Below the pieces are notes generated by a model. It was not told the origin of the DNA, did no database searches, and saw only the letters and a list, made by a program, of their open reading frames with translations. The translations under genes and the position numbers were made by a program. A stretch of DNA of 64,000 nt from Glossina fuscipes (lineage: Eukaryota; Arthropoda; Insecta; Diptera; Glossinidae): NCBI RefSeq assembly GCF_014805625.2, contig NW_023998452.1, forward strand, positions 912,308 through 976,307. Direction: 5' to 3'. This document shows, one piece after another, positions 6,239-47,462 of the stretch (positions are counted from its first letter, which is position 1; each line of letters starts with the position of its first letter).

Positions 6239-6251
6239 AAATTTAGGTATA
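6239..6251. repeat. Left target-site duplication of the 6252-7306 element
   Basis: The 13-bp string AAATTTAGGTATA occurs here and again, exactly, at 7307-7319. Both copies sit at the abrupt change from A/T-rich flank to GC-rich element. A 13-bp duplication fits target-primed reverse transcription. Confidence 0.75.
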
Positions 6252-6386
6252 AAAAAAATTTGTGGCAAGGGTTTAACGTGGGTTCCTGTCTGAAAGGCTT
6301 AACCCCACGGTGGCCCAAGCCACTTTTAAGCGTACTACGCCCCCTGGCGAGTTAGACAATCCCCACAGAGTAGGGGCCTAAACAGC

Positions 6387-6491
6387 ACCAGAGTCCAGAA
6401 CAGTTTATTGTGTATGGAACAATAAACCCCACTCTGGTCAATGGCGAGGCCTAGCTGCACTCAATTGTTCCATTTTAGCTAGGAACTCGCC
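6387..6491 (-). other. Tandem long hairpins in the element's 3' half
   Basis: Two adjacent stem-loops. The first pairs 6387-6394 (ACCAGAGT) with 6431-6438 and, inside it, 6403-6411 (GTTTATTGT) with 6419-6427, leaving a 7-nt loop. The second pairs 6443-6448 (GGCGAG) with 6486-6491 and, inside it, 6450-6456 (CCTAGCT) with 6477-6483. All listed pairs are perfect. Such structure near the 3' end of a retroelement RNA could be a recognition site for a reverse transcriptase. That role is inference. Confidence 0.6.
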
Positions 6492-6542
6492 AACCACAAC
6501 CACCACGAGTACTCCCCGAAGGGCCGCACCCAAGCAGTCAGG

Positions 6543-6606
6543 ACTCACAAATTGATCAACTGACTGCTTCCGCCATAAGGCTTCCACTGTGCTGTTGATC
6601 AATTAC
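6543..6606 (-). other. Inverted repeat TTGATCAAC/GTTGATCAA with a competing AAGCAGTCA stem
   Basis: ATTGATCAAC near 6552 is mirrored by GTTGATCAAT near 6594. An alternative stem pairs AAGCAGTCA (about 6533) with TGACTGCTT (about 6561). The two stems share bases and are mutually exclusive, so the RNA could switch between them. Confidence 0.45.
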
Positions 6607-6612
6607 CACCAT

Positions 6613-6843
6613 TACCCGCAGGCATCCGTGACATGTGTTCAAAAGTAAAAATAGGTAAAAGGGGAAAACTTATTCGTCATATCCCCTTTCCATATTTGCA
6701 TGTATTAATTAATTTACCAGACATCTTCTATCAATCGGCCAAAGGGAAGGCCGTCCGTCAATTCCTTTTTGCATTAATAGTATAATTAATTTATTTATTA
6801 CGACTTAAGGACAAAGTCCATCATATACCCGCAGGCATACGTG
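6613..6843. repeat. 18-bp internal direct repeat flanking an A/T-rich insert
   Basis: TACCCGCAGGCATCCGTG (6613-6630) recurs with one mismatch at 6826-6843. The roughly 195 bp between the copies is much more A/T-rich than the rest of the element, as though inserted or created by an internal duplication. Confidence 0.55.
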
Positions 6844-7204
6844 GCTTTGTGAGGCGAGCTTCCTGACCCCCGTGGCTCCCAGTTTGTTTTGCAAAGCCTT
6901 TGGCATACTTTGGGCGGTTGTTAAAACAACCGTACTTGCTTCGGATTCTCCATACTTTCCTGGTTGCCAGCACCAGTGAACTACTTTTCTTCAAGATATA
7001 TAGGTCTCGGGTATTGCACTGATCATGGTAGACTAATCTAATGCACTCTATCATGCACTCGCTAAATTACTACCTTCATCGTACTTAAATACCATTCAAT
7101 ATATTTCCTCGGTAGTAACTAGCTATTGAGTAAGAGCTCTTCTTCCAGCCAACCCCTCCACCATCTCTCAGAAACTCGTCGCCGAGTTAGCAGCCCAAAA
7201 CCTT

Positions 7205-7306
7205 AAACTCTTCTTAGCCGGCCGAAGGCGTTGCCCGGGGATCACCGCTGGGAGGTGAGAGTTTCGGCACATCTATGCTTCCCATCAAAGCATAGTTCAT
7301 CTCCCC
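7205..7306 (-). ncRNA. HDV-like self-cleaving ribozyme at the element's 5' end
   Basis: On the minus strand every helix of the HDV fold appears in order. P1 5' strand is GGGGA (7306-7302). An 8-bp hairpin (7273-7280 with 7288-7295) sits in the P1/P2 joiner. P2 5' is AAACTCT (7264-7258). P3 is CACC/GGTG (7257-7254 with 7246-7243), with loop TCCCAGC (HDV has UCCUCGC). P1 3' is TCCCC (7241-7237). Then comes GGGCAAC (7236-7230), identical to the HDV genomic segment after P1. P4 is a small GCC-TTC-GGC hairpin (7229-7221). The joiner GGCTAAG matches HDV antigenomic, with the expected catalytic C at 7217. P2 3' is AGAGTTT (7211-7205), perfectly complementary to P2 5'. Cleavage would fall exactly at the TSD/element junction. 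The weak point is P1, only 5 clear pairs. Confidence 0.75.
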
Positions 7307-7319
7307 AAATTTAGGTATA
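7307..7319. repeat. Right target-site duplication of the 6252-7306 element
   Basis: Exact second copy of AAATTTAGGTATA. On the minus strand this precedes the first G of the ribozyme. Confidence 0.75.
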
Positions 7320-46664: not shown

Positions 46665-47462
46665 GACTTTATTTATTTATTTATTCCACTTATACAAGAA
46701 ACTCAGCTAAAACAAATTGGCAGTCGAGTTCAATTGACTCTTAAAGTAAATCTTAAATTAATTAATATTAAAACTTAGTATAAGTGCAATAAAACAAATA
46801 AGAAGGAAAAAAAAAAAGAAAAAAAGGATGTACACAACTAGCGTAGAGTCACAACCACAATCGGTACAGGACCAAATTGCAAGTGAACCCCTAAACTATC
46901 GCAAACATGCATAAGCTTGGCAACCGATAATAGTTAACTACAATTAACTTTCGACTCATAATAACATTTTAAGGTTAAAAGTTAGTTCAAGTACGACATA
47001 GGTAAATCGCGCGTATTAAGCAATGTTGCTTTAATGGACTTTAAAGAGTCCGTTAATGAGATTAAGTGTTAGACGTCATTTAGGTTCTTGCAAACAACTC
47101 TGAGCGGGTTAATCAGTTCGTAATTATATTTGCATTGACTAAGCTTTATCAAGATAAAGTGTCTAGAGAAGCGGTTAGGGACATTAAAGCCTATCTCACG
47201 AAGTAATGTGGGCGAGTCAATTGTACCATTTACTAATTTGATTACGAAGGAAATCCAGTGACGGTAAGGATAACAGAAGCAACCTATTTTCATAGGGTGG
47301 AAGAGGGGCAATCGGGTCCCAACCCAAATTCCTAAGGGCAAACAGCAAGAATTGCTTTTGAACAGATTCAATTGAATCCACATAGCACATATATGAAAGA
47401 GACCACACAGAGGCATACTCAAGTATAGGTCTAAGCATTGCTATTTGAAACCGATACCTTAA
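46665..47462 (-). mobile_element. 5'-truncated non-LTR retrotransposon (jockey/CR1-like)
   Basis: On the minus strand a reverse-transcriptase C-terminal coding segment (47462 to about 47069) is followed by a 3' untranslated region of about 390 bp. This ends in an AATAAATAAATAAATAAA tail (46668-46685). Tetranucleotide-like tails and 5' truncation are typical of jockey-superfamily LINEs. I found no target-site duplication flanking it, so the 5' junction may be further rearranged. Confidence 0.75.
47069..47462 (-). pseudogene. Reverse transcriptase C-terminal fragment, frameshifted
   Basis: From about 47460 the frame reads YRFQIAMLRPILEYASVWS, then IESVQKQFLLFALRNLGW, then LPPYENRLLLLSLPSL. These are the blocks after the catalytic YADD in jockey/CR1-type polymerases (V-RPILEYAS-VWSP, RIESVQKKF--FALR, LPPYE-RL-L--L-SL). 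Near 47240 the frame shifts, and the continuation reads FVIKLVNGTIDSPTLLREIG, FNVPNRFSR and NYELINPLRVVCKNLN before the stop. The catalytic motifs lie upstream and are absent. Confidence 0.85.

Follow-up and report, generated by a model that had tools for sequence, protein, structure and literature searches.

The 64-kb stretch of Glossina fuscipes DNA analysed here (the window, 64,000 nucleotides) carries on its minus strand, from position 7306 to 6252, what is very probably (a probability of roughly 0.83) a young copy of a non-LTR retrotransposon that is dispersed, non-coding, and non-autonomous, with its first ca. 102 nucleotides forming an HDV-like self-cleaving ribozyme. The family is best read as a dispersed analogue of the Drosophila rDNA SIDEs. 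An earlier note on this DNA had placed an HDV-like ribozyme at a transposon/target junction; the layout at the junction is confirmed and that reading is supported, and, beyond it, the element is found to represent a non-coding, multi-copy, non-autonomous family.

The element and its copies in the genome

The element is 1055 bp in size (6252..7306, minus strand, 5' end at 7306), its limits being given by the flanking target-site duplications (TSDs) and by the genomic copies; in the element numbering used below, position p corresponds to window position 7307-p. It is flanked by an exact 13-bp repeat, AAATTTAGGTATA on the plus strand, located at 6239-6251 on its 3' side and at 7307-7319 on its 5' side. 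An exact repeat search of the window finds no matches of this string other than these two, which confirms the direct repeat described in the earlier note, and the first ribozyme base, 7306, directly adjoins it, also as described there. A protein-coding element was ruled out, as the longest stop-free run in the six frames of the window copy is 81 codons.

A search of the genome (366 Mb, 709 contigs) with the 1055-bp element gave 990 candidates, the best 40 of which were scored; 39 copies were fetched with their flanks, the window copy being the 40th. Positions ca. 1-1050 are spanned by 33 of these best 40 of 990 copies, at 96-99% identity, and the short form itself therefore spreads, since so many copies have the same ca. 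1050-bp form and there is no long frame. Divergence from the majority sequence is low, 0.57-2.0% in 34 of the 40 (best of 990 candidates), and the rows farthest from it are for the most part 5'-truncated copies whose aligned sequence includes flank. The usual 3' end reads ...CCACAAATT, while the 5' end falls on base 1 in 29 of the 40 and within the first five bases in 34 (best of 990), which is an upper estimate of the share of intact 5' ends, because the ranking, both here and for the relatives described below (best 40 of 872), favours full-length copies and under-samples the 5'-truncated ones. TSDs of at least 8 bp accompany 32 of the 40 copies and those of at least 12 bp accompany 25, compared with 11 (at least 8 bp) and 1 (at least 12 bp) among 1560 mismatched pairs of 5' and 3' flanks. 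Of the 32 copies whose TSD reaches 8 bp, 20 have base 1 directly after the duplication with no extra letters, and 25 have nothing separating the duplication from the element, so the copies place the element's end where the earlier note had predicted it. The copies occupy varied targets on many contigs. Such constant ends and target duplications, set against the flank control, are those of non-autonomous non-LTR elements.

Two other traces of mobile elements were seen in the window. A transposase remnant at 59735-60064 matches PF13843 (E 3e-5), a piggyBac-type domain, and a frame at 47217-47462 resembles by eye the C-terminal region of an ORF2 from a Jockey-type LINE, with no Pfam match at E 0.01.

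Layout of the ribozyme

Read 5' to 3' from 7306 to 7205 on the minus strand, the element begins with GGGGA, the J1/2 hairpin, AAACUCU, CACC, UCCCAGC, the 3' strand of P3, UCCCC, GGGCAAC, P4, GGCUAAG, and AGAGUUU. By sequence and by descriptor, this is the HDV nested double pseudoknot order P1, P2, P3, P1.1, P4, where P1.1 is possible by sequence (CC in L3, GG after P1). The helices and named strings of the earlier note, among them the P3 loop UCCCAGC, GGGCAAC following P1, and the GGCUAAG joiner, all lie where it had put them, with small corrections to the spacing of P2, the length of the hairpin, and the form of P4 that are given below.

P1 (element 1-5/66-70) pairs GGGGA at 7302..7306 with UCCCC at 7237..7241 in five Watson-Crick pairs; it begins at the junction, and cleavage is predicted just before 7306 from the sequence and the 5' ends of the copies. 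There are five pairs in the window family and four where base 5 is U, while the P1 of HDV-like ribozymes is put at about 7 nt in PMC3774820. The J1/2 hairpin (element 12-20/26-34; 7273..7295) has nine pairs, one of them G-U, instead of the eight counted earlier. The P2 strands AAACUCU (7258..7264) and AGAGUUU (7205..7211), element 43-49/96-102, are perfectly complementary, as claimed, and are 46 rather than 47 nt apart. P3 (element 50-53/61-64, CACC/GGUG) with its loop L3, UCCCAGC, occupies 7243..7257, and the joiner GGGCAAC starts at element 71.

P4, a peripheral helix in HDV-class ribozymes, lies at 7219..7230 and has the family form CGGC-UUCG-GCCG. The window copy departs from it by a private G-to-C change at 7228 (element 79), where G stands in all 35 fetched copies that reach this position (L010-L044), and its P4 is either a mismatched version of the family helix or takes a 3-bp GCC/GGC register, the latter being the form given in the earlier note. 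Because of this private change, the window copy may cleave less well than its family would. Between P4 and the 3' strand of P2 lies GGCUAAG; J4/2 is GCUAAGA (7212..7218), with the candidate catalytic C, assigned by position and descriptor, at 7217 (element 90).

Related families

At the locus L024 a copy of the window family is followed, in the same target, by a second element of 705 bp. A search with the latter gave 872 candidates, of which 40 were scored (104 match rows), the main matches among these best 40 being 73-92% alike, and 39 related places were fetched. The ribozymes were sorted by eye into four types, A (the window family), B, C, and D. Type B is characterized by GGGGUGA, an L3 that is mostly UCCAAGU, the joiner GGAAA, a P4 of CGGU-UCG-ACCG, and GCGAAG, which forms J4/2 in types B and C; in type C the J1/2 hairpin is shortened, and type D is close in its letters to the window family. 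The related copies start at base 1 in 32 of 39 cases (best-scored of 872 candidates) and carry TSDs of at least 8 bp in 26 and at least 12 bp in 18 of the 39, whereas 5 of 1482 mismatched flank pairs reach 8 bp. A partial ribozyme-like stretch, alike in its 5' half only, adjoins a B-type element at L065:1027-1136.

Sequence comparison revealed a segment at element 748-815 (6492..6559, minus strand), with the block CUUGGGUGCGGCCCUUCGGGGAGUAC, that is common to three otherwise diverged families. It is identical in 59 of 68 positions to a third family, that of L041, which has a clear likeness to the window element in this segment alone, and from element 766 on, 91 of 124 positions are identical to the C208 element. 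The L041 family and the L024 element also have in common a stretch near the 3' end of the latter. The segment is a possible functional core, and the CUUGGGUGCGGCCCUUCGGGGAGUAC block is perhaps a signal bound by the donor protein.

Strength of the HDV-like match

The search with covariance models suggested in the earlier note gave a divided answer. No Rfam family matches the window at the gathering score, while at a loose threshold RF02682 (HDV-F-prausnitzii) is the best model for a 321-base stretch, where it aligns to 7273-7205 with 26.6 bits (cut-off 44) and E 0.004; across the whole window (4227 families) its E value is 0.8 and several miRNA models on low-complexity sequence or simple repeats rank higher. 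RF02682 is also the best model for four submitted loci, one copy of each of the types A, B, C, and D, with 31.9, 26.4, 26.4, and 33.8 bits, respectively, all below the cut-off of 44, and in each of them it matches in the corresponding position. The likeness to this model, named for a bacterium, extends over P3, the joiner, P4, and J4/2; the window sequence differs from it in scoring below gathering, in the 5' strand of P1, which the model's alignment skips, and in the inserted J1/2 hairpin. RF00094, RF01787, and RF01788, further HDV-type Rfam models, do not match the stretch or the whole window at E up to 10.

An HDV descriptor, with helix lengths chosen with this site in view, has its sole match on both strands of the window at 7306-7205, and it matched 14 times in 300 dinucleotide-shuffled windows and 15 times in 5000 shuffled elements; a looser descriptor found the site together with five other places in the window. 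The minimum-energy z-score, from a program that does not treat pseudoknots, is an ordinary 0.16. Taken alone, the HDV-like fold is suggestive; that it falls on the insertion junction is a further and independent argument for it.

Conservation of the helices was followed in an alignment of 50 rows (A1), a chosen subset from which near-identical and badly broken copies were excluded. The share of paired cells is 84.0% in P1, 95.9% in P2, 95.5% in P3, and 94.1% in the J1/2 hairpin; over all helices it is 92.8%, against 35-56% when the partners are slid. Two-sided changes are present in three of the nine pairs of the J1/2 hairpin and absent from P1, P2, and P3 among the 50 aligned rows, and the fifth pair of P1 fails in 25 of them. 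The cells with two-sided changes number 18 against 2.5 in shuffles, yet the control slid by +1 has 19, and the pairs with such changes number three both in the alignment and in that control. Two of five measures are ordinary in comparison with the shuffles, with two-sided pairs being as high in 80 of 500 and further pair types in 175 of 500.

Since MAFFT misplaced P4 between the types in A1, this helix was counted by anchored parsing, which kept 73 of 79 ribozyme entries, one L069 ribozyme having been entered twice. Those left out were L041, L042, and L045, whose matches start beyond base 7, and the unparsed L064, L080, and second L065 piece; setting aside four rows of odd length left 39 A/D-type and 30 B/C-type entries. 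The fourth pair of P4 is C-G in 36 of the 39 versus U-A in 29 of the 30 (with one L069 ribozyme counted twice), and P4 is complete, with its four pairs, in 36 of the 39 and 22 of the 30 entries, respectively. What sets the two ribozyme types apart here is a single change, which enters the count through many related copies. The earlier note had proposed to look for compensatory changes in P1 and P2; they are seen in the J1/2 hairpin and P4, which covariation appears to support, while the case for P1 and P2 is one of conservation and position. Within the related families, agreement with the L024 element is 92.3% for the ribozyme core, only slightly above that of the remaining element (82-92% in downstream 50-bp windows and 95% in the last partial one), and the J1/2 loop is less conserved (78.2%).

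Targets, promoter, and donor

The commonest TSD length is 14 bp, shared by 10 of 32 window-family copies and 6 of 26 relatives (16 of 58 together). Of 79 copies, 60 could be parsed at the 3' junction, which begins with CTG in 38 and with CTGT in 27, while CTG makes up ca. 0.9% of window positions. Among copies found by their 5' motif, T precedes G1 in 22 of 28 window-family members and 12 of 28 relatives. At L024 (4397-6168) and L032 two elements of the ribozyme families sit in one target, with the duplication between them. A CTGT-type target and a 14-bp duplication may be like those of R1 at its 28S target; three papers found by a literature search for the R1 target sequence are, to judge by their titles and the starts of their abstracts, on other subjects. 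The TSD length and the CTG preference fit target-primed reverse transcription by an enzyme with an R1-like endonuclease preference. It is worth adding that five of the 79 copies (the window copy, L019, L043, L072, and L074), spanning different ribozyme types, have in or beside them a similar flank, TATACCT..., in some of them TATACCTAAATTTATGG, which is either a repeated preferred target or the product of flank duplication.

Neither the window element nor the L024 element contains Pol III A and B boxes that make up a credible pair. The best A box of the former has one mismatch (at 826) and its best B box two (at 287), those of the latter have two mismatches each (at 221 and 75, respectively), and in both elements the A box comes after the B box; a Pol III SINE was ruled out on account of these poor boxes in the wrong order.

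Possible donors were sought among LINEs with an endonuclease (PF14529 profile, 150 scored of 1575 candidates, 12 hand-picked) and with RNase H (PF00075 profile, 150 scored of 442 candidates, 14 hand-picked), neither sample being chosen specifically for R1-, LOA-, RTE-, or R2-like elements. In the 12 endonuclease LINEs, neither the 5' side, over 4 kb (best E 0.4), nor the 3' side (best E 0.25) bears a clear likeness to the element, and among the 14 RNase H LINEs no 3' side matched it; an autonomous partner with ends in common was found at none of these 12 and 14 loci. Among the endonuclease LINEs, a relaxed HDV descriptor matches L096 and L097 weakly, at a single place in each, and the remaining ten nowhere. 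Scans of viral contigs with one 3'-end pattern and two ribozyme patterns found no match. An 18-base 3'-end pattern matched a single viral contig, L001, which was dismissed as a chance hit, since the alignment covers only 19 bases and the contig's frames are phage-like to the eye.

The simplest cycle is probably one of co-transcription, release by the ribozyme, and retrotransposition in trans. The element would be read through within a longer host transcript, and the ribozyme would cut just before the first G to leave an RNA with the exact 5' end of the element. The 3' region of this RNA would be bound in trans by the reverse transcriptase/endonuclease of another element, the donor enzyme would nick CTGT-like targets, and target-primed reverse transcription would produce the duplication of ca. 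14 bp. In this scheme we infer four things, namely the RNA cleavage, the absence of an own promoter, the target-primed reverse transcription, and an R1-type LINE as the donor.

Alternative explanations

Points that weigh against a ribozyme are the Rfam scores below the cut-off, the short P1, the lack of two-sided changes in P1, P2, and P3, and the slid +1 control that equals the observed count; P1 mismatches have been reported in PMC3774820 to weaken such ribozymes and proposed there as a cause of lost activity. One objection, that the HDV-like layout is a coincidence in a G+C-rich repeat, would draw on these scores, on the 14 descriptor matches in 300 shuffled windows, and on the z-score of 0.16, and is nevertheless highly improbable in view of the independent match with the insertion junction, the ranking of RF02682 as the best model in one copy of each of the four ribozyme types, and the compensatory change in P4. 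It is less far-fetched, and still unlikely, that the ribozyme is a decayed fossil, its fold inherited from an active ancestor, with present copies being transcribed from a promoter of their own into RNA that has ceased to cleave. P1 is short and its fifth position is unpaired in half of the aligned rows (25/50), and the window copy has its private change in P4. Against decay speak the precise base-1 5' ends in copies that are ca. 1% diverged, the retention of all four P4 pairs in nearly all A/D-type entries, though in a smaller share of the B/C type, and the lack of a good pair of Pol III boxes.

A different doubt, to which we likewise give little credence, concerns the element and not its ribozyme, namely that it is a remnant, either internally deleted or complete at its 5' end, of an autonomous LINE of the LOA, RTE, or R2 kind with a 5' ribozyme instead of a member of an established non-autonomous family. 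Ribozymes of this sort are published for R2 and for elements of the R4, L1, and RTE clades (PMC3774820), and non-LTR SIDEs are described as rare (PMC3414825). The recurrence of the one ca. 1050-bp form in 33 of the best 40 copies, the lack of a long frame in the window copy, and the lack of a clear likeness among the 12 endonuclease and 14 RNase H LINEs sampled favour instead the family of short, non-autonomous elements with a 5' ribozyme.

Relation to known elements

LOA/baggins elements also carry 5' ribozymes, and LOA-like elements are among the carriers listed in the earlier note. For the other two carriers that it named, R2 and RTE, the ribozymes are published (PMC3774820), and the ribozymes described there in R2 and in the R4, L1, and RTE clades resemble the present one in the cleavage predicted at the element/target junction and in the HDV-type active-site letters; they sit in protein-coding elements, unlike the present one with no long frame. 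R2-type ribozymes vary in their cleavage site according to the same source.

The nearest likeness is to the Drosophila rDNA SIDEs, which are described by Eickbush and Eickbush (PMC3414825) as having a 5' ribozyme and, in the R1-driven kind, 14-bp duplications. The present set looks as if it were built like a SIDE. Both are short and non-coding and start exactly with an HDV-like ribozyme, and SIDEs are moved by the proteins of another element, as proposed here. The 14-bp target duplications and the tandem insertions with the duplication between them recall the R2/R1 hybrids, arrays of tandem insertions separated by a duplication being described for R1 and R2/R1 SIDEs (PMC3414825). In contrast to the SIDEs, which are located in 28S genes, the copies here number dozens, occupy dispersed targets, and fall by eye into four ribozyme types.

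Short non-autonomous non-LTR elements, several of them with 5' HDV-like ribozymes, are also described in trypanosomatids (NARTc, RIME, and SIDER, related to L1Tc/ingi; PMC4035085). These differ from the present family in the type of genome and in the 5' sequence, and NARTc and RIME are truncated forms of known autonomous elements, while the present family has no partner among the LINEs sampled. Among the matches listed in searches of the open-access ribozyme and retrotransposon literature, with few subscription papers covered, there was no dispersed animal family of this kind.

A wider and more tentative idea, which we hold at somewhat less than even odds, is that the families form a guild of promoterless 'SINE equivalents', several short non-coding families out of rDNA in which the ribozyme replaces the Pol III promoter by excising them from whatever host transcript contains them, spread genome-wide by an R1-type enzyme that has been relaxed from the 28S site to dispersed CTGT targets. 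As a dispersed, apparently recently active set of multiple families, they would allow a test in nature of whether a SINE-like parasite can do with a ribozyme in place of a promoter, and they provide dozens of natural HDV-like variants, with records of their 5' ends, for structure-function work.
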